Shown here: in pieces, positions 1 through 38,561 of the stretch | Position numbering within the stretch: position 1 is the stretch's first letter | Layout: every line of letters starts with the position of its first letter | IMG/VR virus record: IMGVR_UViG_3300042472_000301 | Coordinates: 1-64,000 of that record | DNA length: 64,000 nt | Direction: 5' to 3' (one strand) | Source: a virus | Notes under the pieces: generated by a model | What the model saw: the letters and a program-made list of their open reading frames with translations, nothing else | Told to the model about the DNA's origin: nothing | Databases searched by the model: none | Position numbers and translations under genes: made by a program

Positions 1-635
1 AACGAGCGCCAGTAAAACGGGTTGCAAAACCTGCGCCTGTTAGGAACCCAGACTTTACAGACAAGGTTGTTGATCTTATCAAGTGGGTAGACAGTCCGTT
101 CAAGCTGATCTCGGTGGTGCTGATTGCGTTTGTTGCGTTTGCTGGATACTTTGCTTGGGACTCACGGCAGGTCATTCTTGGTGCTATCAGTAGCAAAAAG
201 ACGGAGCTAAAAGAGCCGTTGTTGGTTGAGGCTATTGCCAAGTCTTTGATTTACGACCTAAGCGCAGATGTGGTGATTGTGAATTCAGTCAATCTTCAAT
301 CAAACAGCCGCACAACCATCTTGGCAATGAGTAATCAGGGTCGAGAGAAGTCGCTTGAAGGTGCGGTCAATGCCTTGTTTACAAGCACACCTGAACACAA
401 TCGTGCAGTCATCACAATGTTTCAAGGCGAAGTAGCTTGCGATCCGTTTGTGCCAAGCTCAAAGCTCGGTGAGTACGCTGTCAAGCATGGCGTGACGTAT
501 ATGTGCCGTGGTTCCGTGCCGCCCGAACAAGGCAGGTTTGTAGGCTACATAGCGGTGGGTTTTAAGATACCGCCCAAAGACATTTCACAAGCGAAGACTC
601 GCATTAACTTAGCAAGCACGGAGATGAGTAAATGA
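1..635 (+). CDS. Membrane-anchored lysis-cassette protein (5' end cut by window edge)
   Basis: The frame is open from base 3 and has no start inside the window; the nearly identical copy at 37899 shows that only about 28 bases of the gene are missing. It has one hydrophobic segment close to the N-terminus (VVLIAFVAFAGYFAWDS) followed by about 150 residues of probable periplasmic domain. By eye it is about 94% identical to the copy at 37899-38561. It overlaps the endolysin start by 4 bases (ATGA). Its place between holin and endolysin suggests a role in lysis, such as a spanin or lysis regulator, but I do not recognise the family and no lipobox is visible. Confidence 0.8.
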   Translation, partial: RAPVKRVAKPAPVRNPDFTDKVVDLIKWVDSPFKLISVVLIAFVAFAGYFAWDSRQVILGAISSKKTELKEPLLVEAIAKSLIYDLSADVVIVNSVNLQSNSRTTILAMSNQGREKSLEGAVNALFTSTPEHNRAVITMFQGEVACDPFVPSSKLGEYAVKHGVTYMCRGSVPPEQGRFVGYIAVGFKIPPKDISQAKTRINLASTEMSK

Positions 636-1168
636 TTAGCAATTGGGATCAAGCGTTTAAGCAGATGCTCGCCTCAGAGGGCGGCTTCACAGACGATGAG
701 CGTGATAACGGAAACAAGCTACCAGATGGGCGTAAAGGCTCAACCATGCTTGGCGTGACTCAGTTCAACTGGGAGCAACACGTTGGGCATCAAGTGTCGC
801 ACGACGATATGCGCGCGTTAACCCCCGCCAACGTGGAACCTTTGTACAAGAAAAAATATTGGGATGTTGTTCGCGCGGACGAATTGCCTAGCGGTATTGA
901 TTACATGGTGTTTGACATGGGCGTGAACGCAGGCCCTGGGCGCGCTATCAAACTATTGCAAACTGCGGTAGGCGTGACGCCTGATGGTGGCTTCGGCCCG
1001 ATGACAATGGCAGCTGTGCAAGCGATCGATCCTGTTGAACTGATTGAAAAGTTCAGCCAAGCCAAGGAAGACTTTTACCGCTCCCTTGGCACCTTTGCAA
1101 CTTTTGGCAAAGGCTGGCTAAACCGCGTGGCTGACGTTAAAGTCAAAGCCAATTCAATGCTCGCATAA
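632..1168 (+). CDS. Endolysin, glycoside hydrolase family 108 type
   Basis: A 178-residue muramidase-type endolysin that would cleave the glycan strands of peptidoglycan at the end of infection. The N-terminal SEGGFTDDERDNGNK motif carries the likely catalytic glutamate (E16), as in GH108 enzymes, and PDGGFGPMTMAA in the C-terminal half looks like the PG_binding_3 region found in this family. There is no signal peptide, so export would depend on the holin at 37483. It starts by ATGA overlap with the upstream membrane protein. A second copy, about 83% identical by eye, lies at 38558. Confidence 0.93.
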   Translation: MISNWDQAFKQMLASEGGFTDDERDNGNKLPDGRKGSTMLGVTQFNWEQHVGHQVSHDDMRALTPANVEPLYKKKYWDVVRADELPSGIDYMVFDMGVNAGPGRAIKLLQTAVGVTPDGGFGPMTMAAVQAIDPVELIEKFSQAKEDFYRSLGTFATFGKGWLNRVADVKVKANSMLA

Positions 1169-1170
1169 GC

Positions 1171-1262
1171 AACCGACGCCACAAGGGGATGTACGGTCGA
1201 ACGTACCGCCCCGTGTGGATTGAACGCGCGATGCGCCCTGTCCAGTTGGCGTCAGTACGGTT
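1171..1262. ncRNA. Candidate three-way-junction structured RNA
   Basis: The gap between two convergent genes can fold almost completely. The closing stem is ACGCCA (1176-1181) with TGGCGT (1247-1252), extendable through AACCG (1171-1175) with CGGTT (1258-1262). One arm is GGGG (1185-1188) with CCCC (1209-1212), topped by GTACG-GTCGAA-CGTAC (1191-1206). The other arm is GCGC-GAT-GCGC (1226-1236). There is no T-run on either strand, so it is not a standard terminator. The transcribed strand is unknown, and the matching position after the phage B endolysin lacks it. Confidence 0.45.
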
Positions 1263-1449
1263 AATATTTCTTGATGCAGTATTCACAATACCCTCCTAAA
1301 AGATCACTACAGACTTGACCACAGCCGTCGCAGATTAACTCGGGCGGAAATGTTGGTGGGGGCTTCTCACGGGTGTTGAACAGCCACAGTAATGCCGCTA
1401 TCATCAACGCCATAGAGGCGTAAAACCACATTATGATGTCGTAGAGCAT
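1261..1449 (-). CDS. Small membrane protein with two CxxC pairs
   Basis: A 62-residue protein, last gene of the leftward early operon. The first 25 residues form one membrane segment (FYASMALMIAALLWLF). After a proline-rich hinge, the C-terminus has CDGC and CEYC pairs spaced like a small zinc ribbon. It overlaps the 3' end of the gene before it by 19 bases. The function is unknown. Confidence 0.65.
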   Translation of the reverse strand: MLYDIIMWFYASMALMIAALLWLFNTREKPPPTFPPELICDGCGQVCSDLLGGYCEYCIKKY

Positions 1450-1580
1450 TTGCGCTTGTCCAGTAAAATTTGAATGTCTACGCGTAGCATCAGATGCTCT
1501 TGACGCAACCGCGCAATGTCATCATCAATCTGTGCCAACCGATCAACGATTTGTTTGTACACTTGGCTTTCTGTAATCAT
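1431..1580 (-). CDS. Small helical protein of the early operon
   Basis: A 49-residue frame starting at ATG 1580, preceded by a strong ribosome-binding site (GGGAGGTG, 5 bases before the start). It overlaps the upstream gene by 4 bases (ATGA) and the downstream gene by 19 bases. The sequence is charged and heptad-like (RLAQIDDDIARLRQEHLML), so a short coiled coil is likely. I do not recognise the family. Confidence 0.6.
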   Translation of the reverse strand: MITESQVYKQIVDRLAQIDDDIARLRQEHLMLRVDIQILLDKRKCSTTS

Positions 1581-1795
1581 GTTTCACCTCCCGCACCACC
1601 ACCACCTTCTGTTGTTGGCTTGATGTTGTTGGTCGCAATGTACTGCGGCAAATGTTCAGGTGACATGGGCAGCGTAGGCTTGGCTAACTCTAATTTCAAT
1701 TCAATCGCATACGCTAACGCCTCTTGATTTAGCGCAGACCAAACCGAGTTCTGTGCAACCGATAGCGCGTCGATGATTACATCAATCTTGTTCAT
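1577..1795 (-). CDS. Hypothetical early protein (MNKIDVIIDAL family)
   Basis: A 72-residue protein with an N-terminal helix MNKIDVIIDALSVAQNS and a glycine-rich tail. The same N-terminal motif occurs as a 14-codon stub in phage B at 53602-53646, so this is a family shared by both phages. It is coupled to both neighbours by 4-base overlaps. No function can be assigned. Confidence 0.65.
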   Translation of the reverse strand: MNKIDVIIDALSVAQNSVWSALNQEALAYAIELKLELAKPTLPMSPEHLPQYIATNNIKPTTEGGGGAGGET

Positions 1796-1983
1796 GGTCG
1801 TAACCCCTCTTTCAACAGTTCAATACGCTCTCGCGCCACACGCAGAGAGTTCGCGCGCTGATGCAAGCGCAACAGCATTTTCACCCGACGCTCATGGGTG
1901 CGTTCGTACTCAAGCATGGCCATGATTTCGTCTTCAGACAGCGTGGCCATCGTTTCATTTAGTTTTCGCCATGTGATTTTCAT
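1792..1983 (-). CDS. Small basic helical protein
   Basis: A 63-residue, arginine-rich and probably all-helical protein (RVARERIELLKEG near the end). The ribosome-binding site is TTGGAGGAACGGT just before the ATG. It overlaps the upstream small gene by 29 bases in another frame and the downstream gene by 4 bases. No known family is recognised. Confidence 0.6.
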   Translation of the reverse strand: MKITWRKLNETMATLSEDEIMAMLEYERTHERRVKMLLRLHQRANSLRVARERIELLKEGLRP

Positions 1984-2116
1984 ACCGTTCCTCCAATTTT
2001 TTAACAGTTACAAAAACACGGTTGTAGGCCCGTGTTGCTTCGTTCATTAGCTTCTGCCGGTGGCGCAGCGTATCCTTGGCCGTGGCCAGTTGCGCGCGTA
2101 GTAGATCAATTTTCAC
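1955..2116 (-). CDS. Small coiled-coil protein, GTG start
   Basis: A 53-residue frame from GTG 2116, with AAAGGA six bases upstream. It overlaps the end of the previous gene and the start of the next, as throughout this operon. The sequence is lysine- and arginine-rich and predicted helical (LLRAQLATAKDTLRHRQ). It fills what would otherwise be the only gap in the operon. Confidence 0.55.
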   Translation of the reverse strand: MKIDLLRAQLATAKDTLRHRQKLMNEATRAYNRVFVTVKKLEERYENHMAKTK

Positions 2117-2306
2117 GTCTTTCCTTTTGTAATGAAACTAATTCGCGGCGCAGCATAAAAATCTGATTGCCAAATTCAATTAGACCTTGACGCAGCGTTT
2201 CGTTTGACTGCTGTAAATTGCGGATGTACTCCGCCGTTTCAATCTGCTCTTCAAGTTTCATAACGTACCCGTGTTCTAGGTAACGCAAGATGTTGTCAGG
2301 TGTCAT
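2106..2306 (-). CDS. Small coiled-coil protein
   Basis: A 66-residue protein with heptad-like spacing of leucines and isoleucines across most of its length (LEEQIETAEYIRNLQQSNETL), so probably an oligomerising helix. It is coupled by a 4-base overlap to the winged-helix gene upstream. The function is unknown. Confidence 0.6.
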   Translation of the reverse strand: MTPDNILRYLEHGYVMKLEEQIETAEYIRNLQQSNETLRQGLIEFGNQIFMLRRELVSLQKERREN

Positions 2307-2548
2307 GCTCTCAGTCCAAAAGGGTTATGGGCGTGTTTAATAACTAGGTTTTCAAAATGCTCAACGACCGTAGGCGTAGACACTATGTAAGTGGCGGGCT
2401 CGGTATCAACACGCTTGACTAGCCCTTTCATTTGCAAGCGTCCTAGCGCGCTGTAGATGCTGCTGCGCTGTATCTTGCAATGGTCGGAAATCTCTTGCGC
2501 CGTATGCGGCTTAGTACAAAACGCAATTATCTTGTCAGGTGTTCTCAT
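2303..2548 (-). CDS. Winged-helix transcription regulator
   Basis: An 81-residue protein with a clear helix-turn-helix: HTAQEISDHCKIQRSSIYSA (about residues 15-34), then ALGRLQMKGLVKRV as recognition helix plus wing strand. The layout is MarR/IclR-like. It is the only evident DNA-binding regulator in this operon, so it may control early gene expression of phage A. Its target is not known. Confidence 0.7.
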   Translation of the reverse strand: MRTPDKIIAFCTKPHTAQEISDHCKIQRSSIYSALGRLQMKGLVKRVDTEPATYIVSTPTVVEHFENLVIKHAHNPFGLRA

Positions 2549-2748
2549 TTCTCGCCCCTTGCTCTGATTTCATCTGCGGCATAAGTAACGTAAGGTTGTC
2601 GTTCAGTTGGCTCATATTTAAGAGCAATCTTCGCACAAGCCTCACGTTCATCAGCGCGCACAAGTTCGGCAAAGCGTTCAATCCTAGTGTCATATTCAGC
2701 ATGATGTTTATCAAACCCCGCCTGTTCAGCCAATTCTTTATGTTTCAT
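2545..2748 (-). CDS. Hypothetical protein with DEREACA motif, shared with phage B
   Basis: A 67-residue protein with ELVRADEREACAKIALKYEP, followed by a conserved tail ending ADEIRARGEK. The same tail occurs in phage B at 53633-53950, and 99 bases of DNA (2555-2653 against 53652-53750) differ at only three positions. Small proteins with this motif are common in phages, but their function is unknown. Confidence 0.7.
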   Translation of the reverse strand: MKHKELAEQAGFDKHHAEYDTRIERFAELVRADEREACAKIALKYEPTERQPYVTYAADEIRARGEK

Positions 2749-4067
2749 TTCAAAGCCTCTAAAGCTATATCAGACACGGCGCGCTTGTCATGCAACGCCG
2801 CCCAAATTTTTTCATCAACGGTATTGTTAGTGAGCAACACATAGACCCACACGTCATTCTTCTGACCCGACCGATGGATACGCCCTACGGTTTGCTCAAA
2901 AAGTTCAAGGCTCCAAGGCAATGACAGAAAGACCATCCGGCAACCGCCGTGTTGCAGGTTAAGCCCGTGCCCTGCTGACTTGGGGTGGACAAGTAGCAAC
3001 TCCACTTTTCCCGCATTCCAGCGGTCAATGGCGTCTTTGTCGTCGAGAGTGACGGCGTGGGGGTACTGGCGCTTGAGTTCGGCAAGTTCTTCTCGGTAGG
3101 TGTAGGCGATGATGGTGTTAGCACGTTGGTTCTCCTCTAGTAAATCGTCAAGCAAATCAAACTTGTGACGGCTTAACCAAATGGCGGTCTGTAAAGTATC
3201 AAACTTACCTGAGCGCATACTTGCTGTTGTGCTAGTGTGATAGATAAAACCTGACGCCATCTGTTGCAGTTTGCCCGTCACAACCGCCGCGTTGATTGCC
3301 TCAATGTGTGTATCGCCAAACAACAACACAAAGTCTTGTTTCATTTTCTTATAACTCACCATGTCCATGTCACAGCGCATCTCAACGGTGTGGCAAGGCG
3401 GCAGCTTGTCGGCGTACTCACCTGCCTCAAGCAGATAGGTCGCGGGCTTGATACGCTCCATCACCGATTGCAACGCCTTGGGGCGTGGCGCCCATTCGCC
3501 GTACTCTTTGTTCATCAGCACAAAGTACGTTTGCATAAACGCGCCTTTGCTGCGCCCAAGCAACGATTGGTCAACGATCTTGCATTGCCCAAACACGTCT
3601 TCTAAACCGTTACTTGTGAACGATCCGGTCAGGCCCCAGCGCACGGTCATAGGTTCAATGACTTTAAGCAACGCTTTGAAGCGCGCGCCCGAGGGGTTCT
3701 TGAGCCGTGTCAGTTCGTCAAACACAATGCCGTCAAAGTCCAACTCTTGCTCGGCTAACCATTGCAGATTGTCGTAGTTGGTCACAACGACGTTAGCGTT
3801 AGATTGAAGCGCAGCTAAACGCCGTGCGGGTGTGCCACCGGCAAACGCCACACTAAGTTTGAACCCCCACTTGACAGCCTCGGCTGGCCATACGCTCATG
3901 GCAACCCGTTTGGGTGCTAGGACAAGCCAACGGCGCACCGGTGAGGCTTGCATAGCGGTCAACGTAATCGCCGTCTTACCGGCGCCCACAGGGGCCAACA
4001 CCATAGCGCGGTCGTGTGTGCCGAGAAAAGCGGCGGCTTCAGTTTGATAAGGTCTTAATGTAAGCAT
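2745..4067 (-). CDS. SNF2/DEAD-type helicase
   Basis: A 440-residue superfamily 2 helicase or translocase. Motif I is APVGAGKTA (residues 25-33), motif II is the variant FDEL near residue 116, motif III is GLTGSF near 146, and motif VI is QTVGRIHRSGQ near 400, which is typical of phage SNF2-like proteins. It probably acts in replication or recombination together with the VRR-NUC nuclease encoded just upstream, whose frame it overlaps by 29 bases. Phage B has the same nuclease-helicase pair at 62968-64000 on the other strand. Confidence 0.9.
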   Translation of the reverse strand: MLTLRPYQTEAAAFLGTHDRAMVLAPVGAGKTAITLTAMQASPVRRWLVLAPKRVAMSVWPAEAVKWGFKLSVAFAGGTPARRLAALQSNANVVVTNYDNLQWLAEQELDFDGIVFDELTRLKNPSGARFKALLKVIEPMTVRWGLTGSFTSNGLEDVFGQCKIVDQSLLGRSKGAFMQTYFVLMNKEYGEWAPRPKALQSVMERIKPATYLLEAGEYADKLPPCHTVEMRCDMDMVSYKKMKQDFVLLFGDTHIEAINAAVVTGKLQQMASGFIYHTSTTASMRSGKFDTLQTAIWLSRHKFDLLDDLLEENQRANTIIAYTYREELAELKRQYPHAVTLDDKDAIDRWNAGKVELLLVHPKSAGHGLNLQHGGCRMVFLSLPWSLELFEQTVGRIHRSGQKNDVWVYVLLTNNTVDEKIWAALHDKRAVSDIALEALK

Positions 4068-4317
4068 CTACTTGTTCCTTAGTCCATAGTGTTGTGTAGT
4101 TTTGATTTAATCTCGCCATGTCGGCGGCAAAAATTTTTTGTAATTCTGACAATCGACCCCCTTTAGTCTTGAGCTCTACAAACCATGTCGCCCCGTCAGG
4201 GAAACACGCTATACGATCGGCAACGCCACGGTGGCTAGGTGACGTAAACTTATACGTCTTGCCGCCCGCGCGTTCGACTGCCCATTTAAAATAATTTTCG
4301 ATTTCTGATTCTTTCAT
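4039..4317 (-). CDS. VRR-NUC domain nuclease
   Basis: A 92-residue single-domain PD-(D/E)XK nuclease. The core is GVADRIACFPD, then FVELKTKGGRLSELQK with the E-x-K catalytic pair, giving the VRR-NUC pattern. The family includes structure-specific nucleases that process replication or recombination intermediates. It is the first gene of the leftward operon, transcribed from 4318-4381, and pairs with the helicase downstream. Confidence 0.88.
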   Translation of the reverse strand: MKESEIENYFKWAVERAGGKTYKFTSPSHRGVADRIACFPDGATWFVELKTKGGRLSELQKIFAADMARLNQNYTTLWTKEQVDAYIKTLSN

Positions 4318-4381
4318 GTAAAAAAGTATAGCACAGGCAAAAAATCGTGTACAATTAAATTTCTAAACAGGAGATTACACT
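4318..4381. promoter_or_regulatory. Divergent promoter region
   Basis: This 64-bp AT-rich spacer lies between two divergent operons. Rightward, TACAAT at 4350-4355 is a plausible -10 element, with AGGAG (4369-4373) as ribosome-binding site of the DUF2800 gene. Leftward, TATACT (complement of 4325-4330) is a plausible -10. No convincing -35 is visible for either, so phage or host activators may be needed. Confidence 0.5.
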
Positions 4382-5470
4382 ATGCTTCACTCAACTATCG
4401 TAGGTGGCTCGACCGCCAAACGCGTTATCGCTTGCCCAGCCTCAATCGACTTGGTTGCTAAGATGCCGCCAAAGCCCTCTAGCAAGTACGCTGACGAAGG
4501 CACACTCTTACACGACGCCATTAGCCAAATCCTTGACTGCAAGGCGACACCCGAGTCTGTGATCGGTATGGTTCACGAAGGCATTACGCTTACACAGGAG
4601 TTATACGATGACAAGATTGCTGTGGCGTTGTCGGCGTTGGATGAAATTGATCCCGATAAGCAGATGGAATTTGCTGTGGAAAGCAGCGTCAACTTTGGTG
4701 ATCTTTTGCCTGGCGTGTTTGGAAGTGCTGATCTACTTGGCCGGATCGGCAAAAAGGCAATTGTTTTGGATTGGAAATTCGGCAATGGCGTGGCTGTCGA
4801 GGCAACTGAGAACGAACAGGGTATGTTCTACGCTGCTGCTGCCATGCGTACGCCGGAAACTCAATGGGTGTTTGAGGATGTTGAAGAAATTGAAATCATT
4901 ATTGTTCAACCGCCGATGGTGAAGCGTTGGGTGACAACGCCCGAGCGTATCGCTAAGTTTGAGTTTGACCTGATAGCTGCGGTCAACGGCCCACGCACTA
5001 AGCTAGAGTCCGGTGAGCATTGCCGGTGGTGTGCAGCCAAGCCCACTTGCCCGTTGGTTACGGGTGCTGTTGACCGTGCGCTCAAGACCGCGCTTGTGCG
5101 CCTTGACGCTGACAAGATAAGTGAGTACCTCACCCAAGCCGATGAACTCGAATCGTGGATCGACGCCGTGCGCGTACTGGCCTACGATATGTTAGAGAAC
5201 AACGTGCGTGTGCCAGGATACAAACTGGTCGCCAAGCGCGGCACACGTCAATGGGTGAACGATGAAGCGCCGGTAAAATTATTAGGTGACAAAGCGTATG
5301 AGAGTAAGTTAATCTCTGTAGCCCAAGCCGAAAAAATTATTGGCAAAAAGAACTTTCCGTCTGACGTAGCAGTAAGCGTTAGCTCGGGCAGTACGTTGGC
5401 AGCGGAATCTGATCCACGGCCAGCGGTGATCGACCTAGGTAAGCAACTCGCTAACCTAAAACTACTCTAA
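4382..5470 (+). CDS. DUF2800 PD-(D/E)XK nuclease with Fe-S-type cysteines
   Basis: A 362-residue Cas4/RecB-like nuclease. The catalytic core is GSADLLGR (about residue 115) followed by VLDWKFGNG (about 128-136) and the helix motif NEQGMFYA (about 142). Cysteines in CRWCAAKPTC (about 213-222) are spaced as in Fe-S cluster members of this superfamily. Homologues sit in phage replication modules beside ssDNA-binding proteins and polymerases, as here. Phage B has a diverged homologue at 58529-59626. Confidence 0.88.
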   Translation: MLHSTIVGGSTAKRVIACPASIDLVAKMPPKPSSKYADEGTLLHDAISQILDCKATPESVIGMVHEGITLTQELYDDKIAVALSALDEIDPDKQMEFAVESSVNFGDLLPGVFGSADLLGRIGKKAIVLDWKFGNGVAVEATENEQGMFYAAAAMRTPETQWVFEDVEEIEIIIVQPPMVKRWVTTPERIAKFEFDLIAAVNGPRTKLESGEHCRWCAAKPTCPLVTGAVDRALKTALVRLDADKISEYLTQADELESWIDAVRVLAYDMLENNVRVPGYKLVAKRGTRQWVNDEAPVKLLGDKAYESKLISVAQAEKIIGKKNFPSDVAVSVSSGSTLAAESDPRPAVIDLGKQLANLKLL

Positions 5471-5482
5471 AAGGTACTCTAA

Positions 5483-6109
5483 ATGTTTAACTTAGCTAAT
5501 CTACCGCAAGTAAAATCTCTCTCTACAGCCCTGCGTACTATCCAAGCAGAAGTTGGCCCAACTGGCGTTGTTATCATCAAGATGGACAAGACCGGTCATT
5601 GGGTTTTTGGTGCTGACCAAACCGAAGTCGAAGCTGACTCAACTTGGGCGGTCAATCCTTTTTCGTTTGTCCACGGCTACATTGCGTGGGGTGACGGTGA
5701 AGTATTGGCTGAGAAAATGGTGTCGGTATCTGAGCCATTGCCTGAGATGGATGACGCACCACCAAGCGCCAAACGTGGTTGGGAAGTGCAGGTCGGCATG
5801 AGCATAAAGTGTTTGACCGGCGAAGACAAAGGTTTGGAAGCGCGTTACACCACCACATCAGCGGGTGGCAAGCGTGGTGTACAGACCTTGGCTGTTGCGA
5901 TTGCTGAACAAGTTGATAAAGATCAGTCTAAACCTGTGCCTGTCGTGTTGCTCAAAAAGGAACACTATCAGCACAAGTCGTATGGCCGCATCTTTACACC
6001 TCTGTTTGACATTCAGTCGTGGGTCGGCATGGACGGTGAAGAGCCAGTTGTTGAGGCAGAAGAAGTTGCCGAGGCAGCACCCGCACGTCGTCGTAGGAGC
6101 GCAACATGA
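5483..6109 (+). CDS. Hypothetical replication-module protein, possible ssDNA-binding protein
   Basis: A 208-residue protein with an acidic C-terminal region that ends in a basic ARRRRS tail. It lies directly after the DUF2800 nuclease, the place taken in phage B by DUF2815 (57944-58507), a family with an ssDNA-binding role. The sequences are not visibly similar. An analogous ssDNA-binding function is therefore an inference from gene order only. Confidence 0.65.
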   Translation: MFNLANLPQVKSLSTALRTIQAEVGPTGVVIIKMDKTGHWVFGADQTEVEADSTWAVNPFSFVHGYIAWGDGEVLAEKMVSVSEPLPEMDDAPPSAKRGWEVQVGMSIKCLTGEDKGLEARYTTTSAGGKRGVQTLAVAIAEQVDKDQSKPVPVVLLKKEHYQHKSYGRIFTPLFDIQSWVGMDGEEPVVEAEEVAEAAPARRRRSAT

Positions 6110-6279
6110 AACTTGACCTCTCATTAGACGAGATCAATAAAATCTTGGGTGTACTTGGGCGTCAGCCTTACCAAGAAGTTGAGCAATTAATTGCCAAGGT
6201 TCGTCGTCAAGCGTTACCGCAGTTGCAAGAGCCTGAAGCAGAAGAAGGTGTTGTTTACTATCCAAAAGTAGCCGAGTAA
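6106..6279 (+). CDS. Small hypothetical protein
   Basis: A 57-residue frame starting at ATG 6106, overlapping the stop of the gene before it by 4 bases. The N-terminal part is helical (LSLDEINKILGVLGRQPYQE) and the C-terminus is acidic. Codon use and coupling match its neighbours, so I regard it as real. No function is known, though similar short helical proteins often accompany phage nucleases. Confidence 0.65.
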   Translation: MKLDLSLDEINKILGVLGRQPYQEVEQLIAKVRRQALPQLQEPEAEEGVVYYPKVAE

Positions 6280-6285
6280 GGTTCA

Positions 6286-6377
6286 GGGGGCGGTTAGGCA
6301 AGCATTTGAGGATGTCGTAAGTGCGTGTTTTTCTTGCCTTCCAACGCGTATGCAGTAACGGCCAAATCAACGCCCCC
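6286..6377 (+). ncRNA. Candidate extended stem-loop RNA
   Basis: Three helices nest inside one another in a 122-bp gap. GGGGGCG (6286-6292) pairs with CGCCCCC (6371-6377). Inside it, AGGCAAG (6296-6302) pairs with CTTGCCT (6333-6339). Inside that, GCATTT (6302-6307) pairs with AAGTGC (6319-6324) with one G-U pair. It ends about 25 bases before the AT-rich gene at 6402 and could be its leader or a separate small RNA. The strand is inferred from the neighbouring genes. Confidence 0.4.
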
Positions 6378-6401
6378 ACCTATAAATTAAGGTAGAGTCA
6401 A

Positions 6402-7181
6402 ATGGAACCATTAAATTTTTGTCGTCAGATTAAAAAATCGTACGCCGAATCGTGGCGACTTGATTATATTAAAAAAGAACTACCAAAAATGCCTGTAGAT
6501 GTATTAATAAAAGGTTTAGATTCAGCGGTTAAATTTACTTTGCCTAACGACGGTAAAATTATAGAAGATTCAAAATTAAAAGGTCTTATTGACATTACTG
6601 AGTTACGTTTGCCGTATAAAGATATTGTTTTAGAATTTGTTTTAGTTGGTTCAAGATTAAAAAAAATAGTTATCCATGCGATTGAAGATGAATCGCGTAT
6701 AGTGATATGTGTTTGGGGAGGAACAGATAATGCGTGGTTGCCTTTTGTGCTTGCAAGCATACCTAAAATAAATTTTATACGGGTTAACGCAGACAATAGT
6801 TTAAGTTTTGCCGTTCAAAGGCATTTGATAGAAGAAAAATATAAAACAGAAATGAATTTATTGTCGGGTTTGGGCGCTGACACGTTGCTTAGTTTTCTTA
6901 ACGCGTTAGCTTGTAGTAATGTTCATACCGAAAAGTTACCTACCCGTAAGCCTAGCAAAACTCTTGGTGCGTTGCCCTTTGATGAATACCATGTGCTGAC
7001 CATCGACCGTCCAGCGGGCACCGGCAACGGCCACGCGGGAGGTAGTCACCGCAGCCCCCGCGAACACTTGCGTCGGGGCCACATAAGACGTTTGCCAACT
7101 GGCAGCAAAATATGGGTTAACGCAGCGGTCATTAACGCAGGGGCGGGTGGCAAAATCCGTAAGCAATATGCTATGGGTTGA
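6402..7181 (+). CDS. AT-rich accessory protein with GC-rich C-terminal tail
   Basis: A 259-residue protein of unknown function. About the first 185 codons are strikingly AT-rich compared with all neighbours, whereas the last 70 codons have the local GC-rich style, suggesting a fusion of foreign and resident DNA. The tail reads HRSPREHLRRGHIRRL, then KIWVNAAVINAG; from memory, tails of this type end several unrelated phage proteins. It overlaps the polymerase frame by 35 bases. The N-terminal part has mixed alpha/beta character and no catalytic motif I can name. Confidence 0.7.
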   Translation: MEPLNFCRQIKKSYAESWRLDYIKKELPKMPVDVLIKGLDSAVKFTLPNDGKIIEDSKLKGLIDITELRLPYKDIVLEFVLVGSRLKKIVIHAIEDESRIVICVWGGTDNAWLPFVLASIPKINFIRVNADNSLSFAVQRHLIEEKYKTEMNLLSGLGADTLLSFLNALACSNVHTEKLPTRKPSKTLGALPFDEYHVLTIDRPAGTGNGHAGGSHRSPREHLRRGHIRRLPTGSKIWVNAAVINAGAGGKIRKQYAMG

Positions 7182-9063
7182 CTTTGAAACCCGTAGCCAC
7201 TGTGACCTTAAACGTCACGGTGTCTACAACTACGCCCAAGACGGTACAACTGAAGTGCTGTGTATGTCCTACGCGTTCGATGACGAAGACGTGGCCACTT
7301 GGACGTCCGGCCCATTCCCCCAACGTGTACGCGATCATAAGGGTTTGATCTACGCCCACAACGCAGCCTTTGAGCGCTTAATCTTTTGGTACGTCTTACA
7401 GATCAATTTCAAATTAGAGCAGTTCTATTGCACCGCAACACAAGCGCGCGCAAACTGTGCACCAGGGAGCCTTGAAGATGTGGGCCGGTTCGCCGGTGCA
7501 AGCATGAAGAAGGATTACCGTGGCGCACAGCTTATCCGTGCGCTATGTGTACCGCCGTTTAAAGACGACCCTGCGCTGATGCTTGAAATGGTGCAATACT
7601 GTGAGCAAGACGTGCGCGCCATGCGCGCGGTTAGCCAAAGCCTACGCCCCTTATCTAATGAGGAGTTATTTGATTATCATGTCAACGAAAAAATCAACGA
7701 CCGAGGTGTACTGGTGGACGTGCCTCTTGCCAGCGCAGCCATCTCTTACGCGGCCATTGAACTCGCGGACATACAGTCCATTGTCAGAACCGTCACCAAT
7801 GGCGCGATCACGTCAGTCCGCTCGCCGAAGATGCGCGAATGGGTTAAAGAAAGACTAAGCCCCGAACAACTTAAACTAATGGAAGTGGAAGATGGAAAAT
7901 ATTCAATCGACAAGCGCGTACGCGCAAACTTACTTGCGGTCGAAGACCTACCGCCCGACGTTGCCGAGGTTATCCAATGTGCCGATGATCTCTGGGCGTC
8001 GTCGGTCGCAAAGTTCTCACGCTTACGCGACTTGGCAGATGTGGAGGACAATCGCGTCCGTGGAGCCTTTGTGTTCGCCGGAGGATCGGCTACTGGTCGT
8101 GCGTCTAGCTATGGCGCGCAAGTACACAACTTCACACGCAAGTGCGCCAAAGCGCCCGAGTCTGTTAGAGAGAGCATGGTTCTCAGACAGCCCATCGTTC
8201 CCCGTTTTGGCAAAAGAGTTACTGACGTTCTAAAGGGTATGTTACGCCCCGCGATCATACCCGCCAAGGGTAAGTCCTTGGTGGTCGCCGACTGGAGTCA
8301 GATCGAAGCGCGGATGACCCCGTGGTTGTCAGGGCGCGGCGATGACGTGCTAGACGTGTTCCGGTCGGGCCGCGATATTTATGTGCGTGAGGCGGCGGCG
8401 ATGTACAAGATACCCGAGTCCGAAGTCACCCTTGACCAAAGGCAGATCGGTAAGGTCGCAATCCTCGCTTGCGGGTTCGGTGGTGGCATTGGCGCGTTCT
8501 CTGCGATGGGTCGCGCCTACGGATTGACCATGACCGAGTCGGACGCGCAGCGTACCGTTGATGCCTGGCGCCGTGCAAACCAATGGGCCGTCAGGTATTG
8601 GCAAGAGTTGGAAACTGGTTACATGATTGCTATGCGTAACAAGGGCAAAGAAATCGTGGCGGGTAGGGTAACCTACCTGTATGACGGGCAGCATCTATGG
8701 TACGCTTTACCCTCGGGTCGCATCCTCTGTTACCCCTACGCCAAACTTGAAGAAGATGGAATTTCATACGCCAAAGCAGCATGGAAGCCCGCCGCCGACG
8801 CTAAAGAGTGGCCGCGCGCGCGATTATGGCGTGGCTTGGCCTGTGAGAACATCACCCAAGCCTGTGCGAACGACGTACTACGTTACGCTCTCCGAGCCCT
8901 TGACGACGTTGTACTCCACGTTCACGACGAAATTGTTATTGAAACCGATCAGCCCGAAACCGTCACCGAGCGGTTAAGGCAAGTTATGTGTACGCCGCCC
9001 CCGTGGGCGCAAGGTCTGCCACTAGACGCCGAGATTCAAACAATGACTCGGTACGGCAAGTAA
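7147..9063 (+). CDS. DNA polymerase, family A (Pol I type)
   Basis: A 638-residue replicative polymerase. The 3'-5' exonuclease has MLWVDFETRS (Exo I, near residue 10), AHNAAFE (Exo II) and YCEQDVRAM (Exo III). Polymerase motif A is VADWSQIEARM (about 379-389), motif B is RQIGKVAILACGFGG (about 430), and motif C is LHVHDEIVIE (about 589-598). No 5' nuclease domain is present. I use GTG at 7147 because AGGGG lies just upstream; ATG at 7168 would also start right at the exonuclease domain. Confidence 0.95.
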   Translation: MAKSVSNMLWVDFETRSHCDLKRHGVYNYAQDGTTEVLCMSYAFDDEDVATWTSGPFPQRVRDHKGLIYAHNAAFERLIFWYVLQINFKLEQFYCTATQARANCAPGSLEDVGRFAGASMKKDYRGAQLIRALCVPPFKDDPALMLEMVQYCEQDVRAMRAVSQSLRPLSNEELFDYHVNEKINDRGVLVDVPLASAAISYAAIELADIQSIVRTVTNGAITSVRSPKMREWVKERLSPEQLKLMEVEDGKYSIDKRVRANLLAVEDLPPDVAEVIQCADDLWASSVAKFSRLRDLADVEDNRVRGAFVFAGGSATGRASSYGAQVHNFTRKCAKAPESVRESMVLRQPIVPRFGKRVTDVLKGMLRPAIIPAKGKSLVVADWSQIEARMTPWLSGRGDDVLDVFRSGRDIYVREAAAMYKIPESEVTLDQRQIGKVAILACGFGGGIGAFSAMGRAYGLTMTESDAQRTVDAWRRANQWAVRYWQELETGYMIAMRNKGKEIVAGRVTYLYDGQHLWYALPSGRILCYPYAKLEEDGISYAKAAWKPAADAKEWPRARLWRGLACENITQACANDVLRYALRALDDVVLHVHDEIVIETDQPETVTERLRQVMCTPPPWAQGLPLDAEIQTMTRYGK

Positions 9064-9068
9064 AAAAA

Positions 9069-9090
9069 AAGCCACCGGCTAGGGTGGCTT
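9069..9090 (-). terminator. Rho-independent terminator on the antisense strand
   Basis: AAGCCACC and GGTGGCTT form a perfect 8-bp stem with a 6-base loop, directly after the polymerase stop codon. The run of A on the left becomes a U-run only for transcripts reading leftward. It therefore fits an antisense terminator better than one for the polymerase mRNA. On the plus strand it would still be a stable 3' hairpin. Confidence 0.6.
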
Positions 9091-9113
9091 AAAAACAACT
9101 AAGGAGTATTGCA

Positions 9114-11426
9114 TTGGACTTCGTCGATTATATTTCAAAAGTCGCCCCTGAGGGTGAAACTTGTCTATTAGTCAAGCAAAAGCCTGTTGGAAAAGAACAA
9201 CACGCCGATGGTACGATTAAGGCGACATGGCCAGCTTTTTACCCCCATGAGTACAAAGAGGGCGGCGCATGGTACGCCAACACAGCCTCATTTGTTGTTG
9301 ATCGCTTTAAGAGTAAACCGAGCGCGTCGATCCACAATTGCGACCATGTTGCCTTTCTTGTGCTTGATGACGTGGGCACTAAATCGAAAGCGCCCCCGCT
9401 CGAGCCCACTTGGAAAATCGAAACTTCCCCCGATAACTTTCAATGGGGTTATACGTTTGCCCTAGACGATCAACCCACGCACCAAGTTTTTAGCGCAGCT
9501 ATCAAAGCGATAGCCGAGGCGGGTTACACCGACAAAGGCGCGTGCAACGCCGTACGCAACTTTAGGATACCAGGGAGCGTTAACCTCAAGCCCGAGCGTA
9601 ACGGGTTCAAGTCGGTGTTAACCGAATTTCACCCCGAGCGTGAGTTTAGTTTGCCGCAAATTATGGGCGCGTTCGGGGTGACTTCCGGCCCCGTCGAATC
9701 CAACGCGTACCGGCCGATCAAGATAGACGACGACGGCACCGATAACATCTTTGCGTGGTTGGCTGAGAATAGTTTAGTCATTAGTCGCCCGAACTCGGAG
9801 GGCTGGGCGGGCGTGGTGTGCCCCAATGCACACGAACACACAGACGGCAACCCGCAAGGGCGTTATAACCCGTCTATGCGCGCCTATTGCTGCTTGCATT
9901 CGCATTGCTTACAACTCGATAGCCATATCTTCCTTGAATGGGTGGAAGGCCAAGGCGGGCCGAGCGCGGCGCCTGGTTTACGCGATGAACTGTTAGCCAA
10001 GACAATGGCCAAGGCATATGAAATTATCGCCCCCACGGCCGCTTTTCCTGATGATGTTAAAAAGCGTCAAACCGAGATTGAAAACCGAGAGCTCGGGCGC
10101 GTACAAAAGCGCGAGTGGTTCGGGCGGTTCGCTTACATTCAGTCCGACGATAGCTATTTTGACTTGCAAGACCGACGCGAGATTAGCCGAGGCACGTTTA
10201 ACGCACTGTTTCGCCACGTCATTTGCAAGTCAATCCGCACCGGTCGCCATATTGAGGCCTCAGTCTGTTTTGATGAACTGCGCCAAGAGAACGGCGCCCC
10301 CGCGTTGGTGGGGATAACGTACGCGGCCGGCGATACCGTCTTGGTTAGCCGAGGCGGTGACGTGTACGGCAATAGGTGGCGCGACGCTCGGCCCGTAGCG
10401 GTGCCTGGCGACATTACCCCGTGGCTTGAGCATTGTAGGCACCTAGTGCCCGACGCGGATACGCTTGAGCATTGTTTTAACGTCATGGCCTATAAGCTGC
10501 AACACCCGCAAACCAAGATCAACCACGCGGTGCTACATACCGGCGTACAGGGTTCGGGCAAAGACACCATGTGGCACCCGTTTATATGGGCCGTATGTGG
10601 CGATAACGCCGTGAACCGTGGCCTGTTGGACTCCGACACTATGTCGTCACAGTTTAATTACGCGCTTGAGAGCGAGATACTGATACTCAACGAATTACGC
10701 GAGCCCGACGCCAAAGACAGGCGCGCCCTGGCGAACAAATTAAAGCCCATCATCGCCGCGCCCCCCGAGTACCTGTCGATCAATCGTAAGGGCCTGAAAC
10801 CGTACGATATGGTGAACAGGTGTATGGTACTGGCGTTTAGTAATGACGCGGTGCCCATTACCCTTGATAGTCAGGATCGGCGCTGGTTTGCCCTTAAATC
10901 AAACGCCCCCCGCATGGCCCCCGAGGTGAGCGCCAAAATATGGGCATGGTTTGCCCGTGGTGGCGTGGCCGCGTGCGCGGCGTGGCTTGCGGCCCGTGAT
11001 GTTTCGGCGTTTAACCCGTCGGCCGCGCCTCCCGTGACTGAATTTAAGTTAACCCTAATCGAACAGGGTATGAGCGCAAATGAGTCGTACCTAGTCGATA
11101 TGATCCGCGAGCGCCGAGGGGTGTTCGCCGGTGGCGTCATAGCGAGCCCCTTTCACGTTATTTGTGACACGTTATCTCTCAACGCACCAGGCACCTATAA
11201 GGTTAGCCAGGGCGCCCTATTGCACGCGTTACTCGAGTGCAGTTGGTTCGACTGTGGCCGGTTAGCCACGCGTGAGCTCACCACCAAAAAACAGGTTTAT
11301 TGTGCGCCTGATATGGTGGGATATAAAAAATCAGAGCTGCGCGTAATGGCCGAAGGCTTGGTAGTGCGGGCCGGTACACCGCTCGCGGCCGTAACACATC
11401 TAAAGCCCGTAAAAAACGCCCCGTAG
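9114..11426 (+). CDS. Primase-helicase (AEP-like primase plus D5/VapE-type ATPase)
   Basis: A 770-residue replication protein. The N-terminal part has HVAFLVLDDVGTK (about 78-90), resembling the acidic catalytic strand of archaeo-eukaryotic primases. A Cys/His-rich segment follows (CPNAHEHTDG to CLHSHC, about 237-265). The C-terminal ATPase has Walker A HTGVQGSGKDT (about 475-485), an acidic ILILNELREPD strand and the SNDAVPI to DRRWF sensor region near 585-605, as in phage superfamily 3-like helicases. It starts at TTG 9114, with AAGGAG seven bases upstream. Phage B has a distant counterpart at 60230. Confidence 0.88.
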   Translation: MDFVDYISKVAPEGETCLLVKQKPVGKEQHADGTIKATWPAFYPHEYKEGGAWYANTASFVVDRFKSKPSASIHNCDHVAFLVLDDVGTKSKAPPLEPTWKIETSPDNFQWGYTFALDDQPTHQVFSAAIKAIAEAGYTDKGACNAVRNFRIPGSVNLKPERNGFKSVLTEFHPEREFSLPQIMGAFGVTSGPVESNAYRPIKIDDDGTDNIFAWLAENSLVISRPNSEGWAGVVCPNAHEHTDGNPQGRYNPSMRAYCCLHSHCLQLDSHIFLEWVEGQGGPSAAPGLRDELLAKTMAKAYEIIAPTAAFPDDVKKRQTEIENRELGRVQKREWFGRFAYIQSDDSYFDLQDRREISRGTFNALFRHVICKSIRTGRHIEASVCFDELRQENGAPALVGITYAAGDTVLVSRGGDVYGNRWRDARPVAVPGDITPWLEHCRHLVPDADTLEHCFNVMAYKLQHPQTKINHAVLHTGVQGSGKDTMWHPFIWAVCGDNAVNRGLLDSDTMSSQFNYALESEILILNELREPDAKDRRALANKLKPIIAAPPEYLSINRKGLKPYDMVNRCMVLAFSNDAVPITLDSQDRRWFALKSNAPRMAPEVSAKIWAWFARGGVAACAAWLAARDVSAFNPSAAPPVTEFKLTLIEQGMSANESYLVDMIRERRGVFAGGVIASPFHVICDTLSLNAPGTYKVSQGALLHALLECSWFDCGRLATRELTTKKQVYCAPDMVGYKKSELRVMAEGLVVRAGTPLAAVTHLKPVKNAP

Positions 11427-11432
11427 GGCGTT
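11411..11432 (-). terminator. Rho-independent terminator of the leftward small-gene operon
   Basis: Read leftward, AACGCCC-TACG-GGGCGTT is a 7-bp stem capped by a UNCG-type tetraloop, followed by six U. It lies just below the last gene of the leftward operon (11450) and overlaps the stop codon of the convergent primase-helicase gene. Confidence 0.8.
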
Positions 11433-11449
11433 GTGTGGTGTGAGATGGT

Positions 11450-11512
11450 TTATAAGTCAAAGACTAGAATCATTAGAATGACGATAGCGGCCGCAATAAG
11501 TGAGATTGTCAT
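11450..11512 (-). CDS. Tiny single-pass membrane peptide
   Basis: A 20-residue frame, MTISLIAAAIVILMILVFDL, almost entirely one hydrophobic helix. It starts by ATGA overlap with the gene upstream and ends just before the operon terminator. Coupling and position support translation, but length alone makes this tentative. Confidence 0.4.
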   Translation of the reverse strand: MTISLIAAAIVILMILVFDL

Positions 11513-11712
11513 AACGGCATTAGCCCCGCGAATAAAGGGCTTAGGCGCGGGATATAAGCGCCGATATCGGCCGGAAAAACCCGTTTGATATACCCACGCT
11601 CGCACATTGAGCGCAGGGTTACGGTGTCGCCTATTGAGTAGACTGTATAGGCACGGTTGCGAACGTGCACAACGTCGCCCACGTCGACCGGCTGGCCTGT
11701 TTTATATTTCAT
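11509..11712 (-). CDS. Small hypothetical protein, beta-rich
   Basis: A 67-residue protein that begins MKYKTGQPVDVGDVVHVRNR and alternates short strands, suggesting a small SH3-like barrel. It is coupled by 4-base overlaps on both sides. The function is unknown. Confidence 0.65.
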   Translation of the reverse strand: MKYKTGQPVDVGDVVHVRNRAYTVYSIGDTVTLRSMCERGYIKRVFPADIGAYIPRLSPLFAGLMPL

Positions 11713-11927
11713 AATGTTAGCCCCTCGGTGTAATAATTATTTAAAGCATCAGCAAGGCCGGTGCCGTGTTCGCATTGATACACCCAAACAACGTCACAAT
11801 CAGGGTAAGCGTTTAGGCATTGTTCCTCGGCGTGCTCGGTATCCTCGGCCCATGCCTGAAAGGAAAACGGCGCGTTTAATGGGCTTTGTATGCTTTCAAT
11901 GCGATATAAAATTACATAGTTTTTCAT
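11709..11927 (-). CDS. Small hypothetical protein
   Basis: A 72-residue protein beginning MKNYVILYRIESIQSPLNAP. The central stretch AEDTEHAEEQCLNAYPDCDV resembles small phage proteins with a ferredoxin-like fold, but I cannot name the family. It is coupled by 4-base overlaps to both neighbours. Confidence 0.65.
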   Translation of the reverse strand: MKNYVILYRIESIQSPLNAPFSFQAWAEDTEHAEEQCLNAYPDCDVVWVYQCEHGTGLADALNNYYTEGLTL

Positions 11928-12112
11928 GTTGTGGCCTTATCGTTGATTAACTGGTACATATTCCAGCCAATGGTTAACACTTGCTCGCCGTTATCAATCA
12001 TAAAGTTATAGGCCCACCGGTCGGCGTCGTGCCATTCAGGACAACTAATAGGCGCCGTTTTAATGTGGTGCCAACCGTGGTTGTCGTTTTTAGCGTGATA
12101 GGCTAATTTCAT
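11924..12112 (-). CDS. Small hypothetical protein
   Basis: A 62-residue protein rich in His and Trp (KNDNHGWHHIKTAPISCPEW). It sits in a strict chain of 4-base overlaps. No family is recognised. Confidence 0.6.
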   Translation of the reverse strand: MKLAYHAKNDNHGWHHIKTAPISCPEWHDADRWAYNFMIDNGEQVLTIGWNMYQLINDKATT

Positions 12113-12360
12113 GGCGCCACCTCAATGGGGAAATATTGCCGAACCGTAATACAGTTAGCGTGCAAGCCGCTTATTTCATCGCGGGCAAAATAACCTTCGT
12201 CGTCGCCTTCGATATCCCAATGACCTTGAGGTTTATGGTTTTCTGCTAACCACTCGGTTAACTGTTTTTCTTCCGCATCATCTAGGCCCGTGTAATCGGC
12301 GTTGATAATGGCGCTGGCCCAATGGTCAGCCAGGGTATAGGTGTAATGGTCGAATTTCAT
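12109..12360 (-). CDS. Small acidic hypothetical protein
   Basis: An 83-residue acidic protein (DDAEEKQLTEWLAENHKPQG). The overall pattern resembles small phage proteins listed as domains of unknown function. It is coupled by 4-base overlaps to both neighbours. Confidence 0.65.
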   Translation of the reverse strand: MKFDHYTYTLADHWASAIINADYTGLDDAEEKQLTEWLAENHKPQGHWDIEGDDEGYFARDEISGLHANCITVRQYFPIEVAP

Positions 12361-12623
12361 AATGTCACCTCCAGGCCTTTAATAAACGCTTGCATAGCGT
12401 TGTAAAGCTCGCGCTTTGTGCTGTGGCCATTACTTAACGGGCAAGTAATGCCACCGCCTTCGTTAACGTGGCGATGCAAGCAAACGCCACCGTACGCGTG
12501 CGAGATATGATAATTGCCCACGTTGGCGCGGCCATTGGCCCAGGGCGCCGTTGGGCTTTTTGTAATAGTGTTGAGATACTCACAAAGTGAGTCTAATTGT
12601 TTATCAGTAATACGTTGTGTCAT
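12357..12623 (-). CDS. Small hypothetical protein
   Basis: An 88-residue protein containing NYHISHAYGGVCLHRHVNEG, with several His and Cys residues. Its ribosome-binding site (CTAAGG) lies in a leader that also holds the hairpin at 12649-12666. No function is known. Confidence 0.65.
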   Translation of the reverse strand: MTQRITDKQLDSLCEYLNTITKSPTAPWANGRANVGNYHISHAYGGVCLHRHVNEGGGITCPLSNGHSTKRELYNAMQAFIKGLEVTL

Positions 12624-12648
12624 TTTTATCTACCTTAGTGAAGTTTAT

Positions 12649-12666
12649 GGCCCGCTTGCGCGGGCC
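12649..12666 (-). other. Intercistronic GNRA-loop hairpin
   Basis: GGCCCGC-TTGC-GCGGGCC is a perfect 7-bp stem; on the transcribed strand the loop is GCAA, a GNRA tetraloop. No U-run follows. It could shield mRNA ends or mark a processing site between the clamp-like gene and the genes below. A sister hairpin is at 13611-13626. Confidence 0.55.
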
Positions 12667-12675
12667 CGAGTGGTG

Positions 12676-13260: not shown

Positions 13261-13284
13261 TTTTTAACCTTAGTGAAGTGAAGT

Positions 13285-13356
13285 TTAGATAAAGCAAGCC
13301 AGCAACAAAGCCAGGCACATAAGTAAAGCTGCGACGATATCGGAAAATTTAGACAT
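13285..13356 (-). CDS. Tiny membrane peptide
   Basis: A 23-residue frame (MSKFSDIVAALLMCLALLLA, then CFI) that is one hydrophobic helix. AAGGTG precedes the ATG by six bases. It sits immediately after the upstream stop codon. Its existence is supported mainly by the good ribosome-binding site. Confidence 0.45.
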   Translation of the reverse strand: MSKFSDIVAALLMCLALLLACFI

Positions 13357-13357
13357 A

Positions 13358-13591
13358 TTAGGCACCTTTTAAGTTAGCGGCAGCGGAAAAGGGCTCGGCA
13401 GCCGGCGCGCATTCGCGGCAAATACAGGGCACAACATCAGTTTTAACGGCTGCGCGAATCTCGGCCACGGTATCAAACCCGCGAACGTGCACAATATCGT
13501 CGCACCAACGCCAACCACACGGCAGGAAAACCATATAGCCATCTTCGCATTCGTCGACGTCAGTTTTAAAATTAAGTTTGAATTTAGACAT
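13358..13591 (-). CDS. Small Cys-rich hypothetical protein
   Basis: A 77-residue protein. The centre (FLPCGWRWCDDIVHV) and C-terminus (VVPCICRECAP) contain cysteines that could bind a metal. Its leader contains the hairpin at 13611-13626 and a TAAGGG ribosome-binding site. The function is unknown. Confidence 0.6.
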   Translation of the reverse strand: MSKFKLNFKTDVDECEDGYMVFLPCGWRWCDDIVHVRGFDTVAEIRAAVKTDVVPCICRECAPAAEPFSAAANLKGA

Positions 13592-13610
13592 ATTGAACCC
13601 TTAGAGTAAT

Positions 13611-13626: not shown

Positions 13627-13634
13627 GGTTGTAT

Positions 13635-13823: not shown

Positions 13824-13854
13824 TTTGTGCCCTTAGTTGTTTAACTGAGATTCT

Positions 13855-37229: not shown

Positions 37230-37483
37230 TGGATTGGCAAAACTTCATCAACTTAGGTGCCGGTGGTCTACTCGCGGTGGGTGGATGGTTTTGTCGTCAG
37301 TTATGGGATTCTGTTAAAGAGCTCAAGACTGACATTGCTAATCTCAAGCTGCACGTCAGCGATTCGTATGTCAAAAAATCCGAGATTGACACAATTAAGT
37401 CCGAGATGGACAAACGCTTTGACCGCGTCGAGATGTTGCTTGACCGCTTGTTCGATAAACTTGAAGCCAAGGCAGACAAATAA
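37229..37483 (+). CDS. Small membrane-anchored coiled-coil protein of the lysis cassette
   Basis: An 84-residue protein: one short hydrophobic segment (LGAGGLLAVGGWFCRQLW) followed by a coiled coil (IDTIKSEMDKRFDRVEMLLD). The layout, a membrane anchor then a periplasmic-type coiled coil, is that of an i-spanin or holin accessory protein. It overlaps the holin gene start by one base. Confidence 0.7.
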   Translation: MDWQNFINLGAGGLLAVGGWFCRQLWDSVKELKTDIANLKLHVSDSYVKKSEIDTIKSEMDKRFDRVEMLLDRLFDKLEAKADK

Positions 37484-37899
37484 TGTTCCCTATCATGGAT
37501 GTGCTTGGCGTTGGCATGAAGATTTTGGATAAGTTTTTTCCTGATCCCGAACAAAAGGCCAAAGCGCAACTTGAGTTAATGCAGATGCAGCAGAACGGCG
37601 AACTCGCCAAGATGCAAGCCGATATGCAAGAGCAGGGCGAACTCACCAAGCGTCAAGAGAACGACATGAGGTCTGACTCTTGGTTGAGTAAAAACATTCG
37701 TCCTATGACCCTCATAGCCATCCTAGCGGGCTACTTCATCTTCGCCATGATGTCAGCGTTTGATCTTGATACAAACGAGAAGTATGTTGAGTTGCTTGGG
37801 CAATGGGGCATGTTAATAATGAGCTTCTATTTCGGTGGTCGCACCCTTGAAAAGATCATCGACATGAAAAACAAAACGCCCGAAAAGAGCGACAAGTAA
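37483..37899 (+). CDS. Holin, 3TM/GTA type
   Basis: A 138-residue protein. An amphipathic N-terminal half rich in Gln and Met (QLELMQMQQNGELAKMQADM) is followed by the SWLSKNIRPMTLIAILAGYF segment (about 65-85) and a second hydrophobic helix (GMLIMSFYFGGRTLEKI, about 105-121). RPMTLI and FYFGGRTLEK are diagnostic of the GTA/3TM holin family. It would release endolysin through the inner membrane. Confidence 0.88.
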   Translation: MFPIMDVLGVGMKILDKFFPDPEQKAKAQLELMQMQQNGELAKMQADMQEQGELTKRQENDMRSDSWLSKNIRPMTLIAILAGYFIFAMMSAFDLDTNEKYVELLGQWGMLIMSFYFGGRTLEKIIDMKNKTPEKSDK

Positions 37900-38561
37900 T
37901 GGTAACGGCTAAAAAGCCTGCGGTTAAACGAGCGCCAGTAAAACGGGTTGCAAAACCTGCGCCTGTTAGGAACCCAGACTTTACAGACAAGGTTGTTGAT
38001 CTTATCAAGTGGGTAGACAGTCCGTTCAAGCTGATCTCGGTGGTGCTGATTGCCTTTGTTGCGTTTGCTGGGTACTTTGCTTGGGACTCACGGCAAGTCA
38101 TTTTGAATGCAATCAGTAGCAAAAAGACAGAGCTAAAAGAGCCGTTGTTGGTTGAGGCTATTGCCAAGTCTTTGATCTACGATCTAAGCGCGGATGTGGT
38201 GATTGTGAATTCAGTCAATCTTCAATCAAACAGTCGCACAACCATTTTGGCAATGAGCAATCAGGGGCGTGAAAAGTCTCTCGAAGGCGCAATCAACGCT
38301 TTGTTTACCAGTTCGCCTGAACGCAACCGTGCAGTCATCACGATGTTCCAAGGAGAGGTGCATTGCGAGACGTTTGTGCCAAGCTCAAAGATTGGAGAGT
38401 ACGTTGTTAAACATGGCGTGACGTATATGTGTCGTGGCTCTGTACCGCCAGAACAAGGCAGGTTTGTAGGCTACATTGCGGTAGGCTTTAAGATACCGCC
38501 TAAGGATATTATTCAAGCGAAGACTCGCATTAACTTAGCAAGCACGGAGATGAGTAAATGA
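37899..38561 (+). CDS. Membrane-anchored lysis-cassette protein (A/B hybrid at the join)
   Basis: A 220-residue protein: a basic, proline-rich cytoplasmic N-terminus (KKPAVKRAPVKRVAKPAPVR), one membrane helix (about 45-62) and a periplasmic domain. The first 28 bases belong to the phage A circle, the next 127 are identical in A and B, and the rest is the B version. It is therefore probably an artificial but near-natural hybrid. Its 3' end overlaps the B endolysin by ATGA. Confidence 0.8.
   Translation: MVTAKKPAVKRAPVKRVAKPAPVRNPDFTDKVVDLIKWVDSPFKLISVVLIAFVAFAGYFAWDSRQVILNAISSKKTELKEPLLVEAIAKSLIYDLSADVVIVNSVNLQSNSRTTILAMSNQGREKSLEGAINALFTSSPERNRAVITMFQGEVHCETFVPSSKIGEYVVKHGVTYMCRGSVPPEQGRFVGYIAVGFKIPPKDIIQAKTRINLASTEMSK
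37927..38053 (+). repeat. 127-bp exact repeat of window bases 1-127 (assembly junction)
   Basis: Every base of 1-127 matches 37927-38053, and the first mismatch is the 128th base (G in A, C in B). The repeat starts exactly at the first base of the window. This is the form expected when a contig passes twice through one 127-mer graph vertex. A true duplication ending exactly at the contig edge is less likely. Confidence 0.9.

Follow-up and report, generated by a model that had tools for sequence, protein, structure and literature searches.

Does IMGVR_UViG_3300042472_000301, a 92,900-base record of the IMG/VR collection, describe one viral genome, or two genomes that were joined? The window analyzed here is the first 64,000 bases of this record. 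A preliminary description had proposed that two phages (here phages A and B) are joined in it at an exact 127-bp repeat, and that it should not be read as one genome. That proposal is well supported: A closes on itself in another contig, B occurs elsewhere without the genome of A, and relatives resembling B carry B-type genes on both sides of the gene at the join in seven of seven cases. As judged from the sequences, the record is very probably an assembly chimera of two co-sampled phages, joined at 127 bp that they share.

The exact repeat lies within a longer homologous lysis module

Direct comparison established that bases 1–127 of the window (plus strand; also the first 127 bases of the record) are identical to bases 37927–38053 (plus strand; the probable false junction between A and B). 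Among the other exact direct repeats of the window the longest measures 50 bp, and inverted repeats of at least 30 bp were not found. The 127-bp repeat is absent from the end of the record (base 92,900), so there is no terminal repeat at that end. The copies had been said to diverge at the next base. Base 128 does differ, but the wording is misleading, because bases 1–1163 and 37927–39089 (both plus strand) stay in register and are 83.7% identical over 1,163 bp, with 190 mismatches. This homologous stretch is a lysis module that comprises the 3' part of a gene for a 220-residue holin-like protein and the endolysin gene that follows it (632–1168, plus strand, phrog_315, in A; 38558–39094, plus strand, with Glyco_hydro_108 and PG_binding_3 domains, in B). 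Beside the 220-aa gene, in addition to the endolysin gene, lies a gene of A for a holin with three transmembrane segments (37483–37899, plus strand; PF11351, phrog_3427). When the 190 mismatch positions were shuffled over the 1,163 positions, a clean run of 127 bases arose in none of 20,000 shuffles, the longest run being 82; 127 identical bases are thus not expected in a module that differs to this extent.

Counterparts of the 127-mer with at most 50 mismatches were present in 37 of 80 loci, where mismatches numbered 0 to 33, and seven loci among the best 80 of 320 relatives carry it exactly (L009, L017, L019, L025, L026, L043, and L050); of these, L026 is phage A and L025 is phage B. The module is thus found in phages that are otherwise unlike. 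(Note that the sets of loci are the best 80 of 320 relatives and, in the other search, the best 80 of at least 598.) We considered and rejected the idea that the 127 bp are an ultra-conserved DNA element: across 28 distinct close homologues synonymous conservation is fairly flat along the gene, at 0.61–0.84 in blocks of 10 codons (excluding the final block of one codon) and 0.82–0.83 in the first 20 codons. A second likeness between A and B, of 99 bp at 97% identity, links bases 2555–2653 with 53652–53750 in small reverse-strand genes, and similar copies occur in phage MW202520 (Manatee Spring), in L050, and in contig 3300042393_000544.

Phage A closes on itself in a separate contig

Bases 1–37926 (plus strand) were described earlier as a full phage gene set that would close at 37,926 bp, and a separate contig, 3300042297_000054 (L026/L224), crosses precisely that point. 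It carries the end of A upstream (6,028 bases, 0 mismatches), then the repeat, and then the start of A, with 3 mismatches in 5,600 bases to A downstream of the repeat as against 190 in 1,160 to B. Because this contig runs from the end of A through the repeat to its start, joining base 37926 to base 1, phage A is a closed unit of 37,926 bp, whether circular, permuted, or terminally redundant. The contig probably stems from another assembly than the record, since within their overlap of about 20 kb the two differ at a few bases.

These data also bear on a reading in which A physically ends at the repeat (as a terminal repeat) and B was joined to that end in the library or during assembly. The record does start on the repeat, and a lone contig of A with a direct terminal repeat of 127 bp would have the same appearance. 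However, in 3300042297_000054 A runs through the point with a single copy, on which ground we rejected the 127 bp as an end of A; in addition, the coding frame of a conserved gene spans this point. We therefore regard a terminal repeat as exceedingly improbable.

Among the genes of A are those for a helicase (2745–4067, minus strand, phrog_62), a DUF2800/exonuclease protein (4382–5470, plus strand), a family A DNA polymerase (7147–9063, plus strand), the terminase large subunit (14841–16361, plus strand), a P22-like portal (17063–19225, plus strand; PF16510, E 1.1e-174), and a P22-like coat protein (24985–26193, plus strand; PF11651, E 2.1e-41), together with tail-fiber and ejection genes. A weak Pfam match to VRR-NUC lies at 4039–4317 (E 0.01, below the curated cut-off). 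In a collection of 50,697 phage records, no near DNA relative of bases 1–20000 was found beyond an 84-base stretch of MW202520. In an A-like contig of 37,641 bp, 3300044951_000407 (G008; L225–L226), the copies of the lysis module at the two ends are only 89% alike, so one end of that contig may come from another phage.

Phage B is found without the genome of A

Phage B begins in the window at 37927–64000 (plus strand) and continues to record base 92,900, where it ends, incomplete, in a tail-fiber-like region; the record holds 54,974 bp of it. The first B-specific gene after the module encodes a virion structural protein (39176–39817, plus strand). The polymerase, DUF2800 protein, and helicase ascribed to this part in the preliminary description are all there, namely a DNA polymerase (55952–57727, minus strand; phrog_1252, with only weak Pfam matches below the cut-off), a DUF2800/exonuclease protein (58529–59626, minus strand), so that DUF2800 occurs in both parts, and a primase-helicase with a VapE-like domain (60230–62713, plus strand). 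A VRR-NUC gene had been listed as well; this assignment is not supported, as 59619–59963 has no Pfam VRR-NUC match at E 0.1 and matches only phrog_408, a family of unknown function. Up to base 92,900 B also encodes virion proteins, a second phrog_62 helicase, a terminase, a portal, and a head protein. An open frame of 2,070 codons lies between the terminase and portal genes (record 68900–75112; L003 8900–15112), and it matched nothing in Pfam and a single PHROG weakly. For bases 39100–64000, the only near DNA relative in the phage collection was a 45-base stretch of MW202520.

Contig 3300042393_000544 (98,113 bp; L219–L223) starts on base 1 of the repeat and is 99.96% identical to B over 54,698 bp. 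With blastn (E 1e-10, at least 100 bp), it matches A only in two copies of the lysis module and over 139 bp in a small gene. Judging by its differences from the record, it too probably comes from another assembly. (Note that the repeat stands at the start of both B records, and that B sequence from just upstream of the repeat was not seen at high identity.) Farther along, this contig has a second lysis module at 57,099–58,710, with 13 mismatches to the 127-mer, and beyond it some 40 kb from a third phage (C), with an open frame of 3,877 codons; the contig may be a second chimera, of phages B and C. The two copies of B differ, at record bases 92625–92900 and from base 54699 of 3300042393_000544, by a small extra gene just before the record stops, and strain variation may explain the break at the record's end.

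Could A and B nonetheless be one natural molecule of more than 90 kb, as with tandem prophages, a satellite and its helper, or another cointegrate? Their arrangement invites the thought, because the gene set of A is complete, that of B is nearly so, and the two lie head to tail at a short repeat. Set against this are the occurrence of A and B apart in separate contigs and the presence of terminase, portal, and capsid genes in both halves, unlike in a typical satellite. Moreover, no tRNA gene was found in the window, and none of 44 pattern matches to the junction protein in bacterial and archaeal genome contigs was confirmed as a relative (a pattern search for close relatives, not an exhaustive one). 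We give a natural double genome next to no credence.

The gene at the junction is a hybrid

As had been proposed, the 220-aa gene at 37899–38561 (plus strand, phrog_31287) is a hybrid: its first 28 bases belong to A, the next 127 are shared, and the rest belongs to B. The last 28 bases of A, from 37899, followed by base 1 onward also form an open frame of 220 codons, and this gene of A's own is found intact in 3300042297_000054; its product differs from the hybrid protein at 10 of 220 residues.

What might this protein do? Comparison of 35 members with Pfam-A returned no family for it, and no holin family at E 1; a PDB profile search likewise returned no holin at E 5 and nothing meaningful. 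Relatives in the phage collection are 11 records that are 21–53% identical, from phages of Edwardsiella, Vibrio, Cronobacter, and Citrobacter and one uncultured phage. In Edwardsiella phage GF-2 the homologue lies directly 5' of the endolysin and spanin genes, and in Cronobacter phage S13 it adjoins no annotated lysis gene within 10.5 kb. A structural model of A's own protein (mean pLDDT 73.5) has a long helix at residues 42–70 and a C-terminal domain, for which the best match in VIA-align was the periplasmic domain of T4 holin T (Z 14.1). Foldseek matches in the PDB were mostly phytochrome and GAF domains, and the 50 matches listed did not include T4 holin T, which came first only in VIA-align; the viral matches of Foldseek include named T/class III holins (TM 0.45–0.48 of the query). 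Residues Cys 156 and Cys 178 are invariant in 35 homologues. T4 holin T itself has one membrane helix and a disulfide in its periplasmic domain. On the basis of the model, we take the 220-aa protein to be a putative holin-like protein that would work like T4 T.

Flanking genes separate A from B, and the lysis gene itself recombines

We compared the marker genes on either side of the 220-aa gene in its relatives. Markers were present on both sides in 13 of 80 loci, the remaining 67 lacking a marker on one side or both and hence being uninformative. Five of the 13 were A on both sides, seven were B on both sides (including L036, which was scored as such despite A-like tail-spike DNA that accompanies its upstream B-type markers), one was A upstream and C downstream, and none combined A with B in either order. 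The exception is L012 (3300020044_004591, gene at 6001), with A-type markers upstream and a C-type gene downstream; it counts against a clean split and is either a natural mosaic or another chimera. (Note that matches to the B gene at 43255 in L009 and L029, at 41% identity, lie upstream of the module and were not scored as B downstream; that the downstream A marker of L029 and L030 is one small gene at 41–43% identity, backed by DNA matches to A up to base 1577; and that a B-type head gene downstream in L077, at 40%, was not counted.) A 60-mer running from the end of the repeat into B occurs in one other stretch, the separate B record. A 55-mer running from A upstream into the repeat occurs in 13 stretches, of which L231 (from the same contig as L026) alone goes on as A, at 100% identity; in several of the others, some parts of the gene resemble A more and other parts resemble B more.

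A PHI-like test on 140 two-state sites in the 28 distinct homologues gave 0.518, as compared with 0.589 (s.d. 0.009) in permuted data, and none of 1,000 permutations was as low. This is the mark of recombination in the gene, although some of the 28 contigs may themselves be chimeric and add to the signal. The record could represent a real A/B recombinant, formed by homologous recombination in the lysis gene and present as a molecule in the sample. The strong recombination signal, the homology of the two modules over 1,163 bp, and the mixed contexts of L012 (A upstream, C downstream) and L036 (A-like tail-spike upstream, B downstream) speak for it. Yet such a molecule would hold a complete A and the greater part of B, with terminase, portal, coat, and polymerase each present twice, which is an unusual size for a recombinant. 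Moreover, the shared tract has a length of exactly 127 bp, its first base is also that of the record, A closes on itself in a separate contig, and no A/B arrangement occurs in the 13 loci with markers on both sides. We consider a recombinant molecule very unlikely. A homologous, recombining lysis module, which the preliminary description had missed, does explain why A and B share a 127-mer: most likely, as far as the comparisons can tell, the shared 127-mer goes back to a real past exchange of lysis genes, and the join of the whole genomes is the assembler's.

The length of the repeat matches the largest k of published metaSPAdes command lines

The number 127 had been noted as a usual largest k-mer of de Bruijn assemblers. 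This fits the JGI metaSPAdes command lines as published (-k 33,55,77,99,127; PMC11584781; PMC7171226), the largest k of which equals the length of the repeat, and the record was presumably assembled at k = 127. When the circle of A and the path of B were broken into k-mers, a single k-mer branched at k = 127, and at k = 128 there was no branching.

The path that we infer through the assembly graph would be as follows. The homologous lysis modules of A and B, being identical over exactly 127 bp, would place one shared vertex in a k = 127 graph, with A as a loop on it and B as an exit. The assembler would walk the loop once, from vertex to vertex, and then leave along B. The resulting contig would begin on the vertex, repeat it after one genome of A, and continue into B.

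Breaks of contigs at this gene are not confined to the record. In assembly 3300044675, contigs L017 and L020 have a common first base within the 220-aa gene and diverge once exactly 127 bp have been shared. Two contigs found with the 55-mer from A (L229 and L234) stop soon after the repeat. Among 46 close loci, hand-picked at 87% identity or more from the best 80 with 34 omitted, an upstream contig end fell between -277 and +647 of the gene start in 20, as compared with about 4 expected if genes are placed evenly. (L016 and L025 are two rows from one contig.) A downstream end fell inside the gene in only 2 of the 46, a figure to be read with the best-80 cut in mind, which favors contigs that keep most of the gene. 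A plain fork in the graph does not predict this asymmetry. The A-like and B-like shared stretch is also not always 127 bases, since a run of 134 bases is identical between A and L023, a B-like contig (markers at 72–81%) with its start 55 bases upstream of the repeat.

Discussion

The record is most likely an ordinary assembly artifact, to be split between bases 37,926 and 37,927, with the hybrid gene discarded. Catalogued as one 92.9-kb genome, it inflates genome size, doubles the hallmark genes, and introduces an invented hybrid lysis protein. Because contig breakpoints are frequent at the 220-aa gene, it is likely that further records contain a join at this lysis module. Chimeras of the same form could be screened for by asking whether the first k-mer of a contig recurs inside it at exactly the assembler's k. 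A bolder proposal would be that the start of the gene is a natural crossover point at which freshwater-type phages swap lysis modules, that real A/B recombinants form there, and that the false join mirrors a true exchange; we think this improbable.

With regard to known systems, the 220-aa protein would resemble T4 holin T (class III; PDB 6PX4/6PSK) in that its model combines a long N-terminal helix with a C-terminal domain superposable on the periplasmic domain of T (r.m.s.d. 3.0 over 129 residues), and its gene adjoins that of an endolysin. It differs from T in being only 8% identical to it, in matching no Pfam holin family, and in that a GAF-fold protein is nearly as close in VIA-align (Z 13.4). 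Phage A is like the P22-like podophages in its portal (PF16510) and coat protein (PF11651), and unlike them in its early region, which encodes a family A DNA polymerase and a DUF2800 protein; to our knowledge, P22 itself lacks such early genes.

Benchmark papers have described chimeric contigs that arise from co-existing viruses with similar regions (PMC5610896; PMC4247695). A literature search that was not exhaustive found no description of a contig that walks a circle and then exits, thereby resembling a double genome. The record is like these inter-genome virome chimeras in that two co-existing genomes are joined at a similar stretch, and it differs from them in that the whole circle of phage A would have been walked before the exit into B and in that the contig starts on the shared k-mer.
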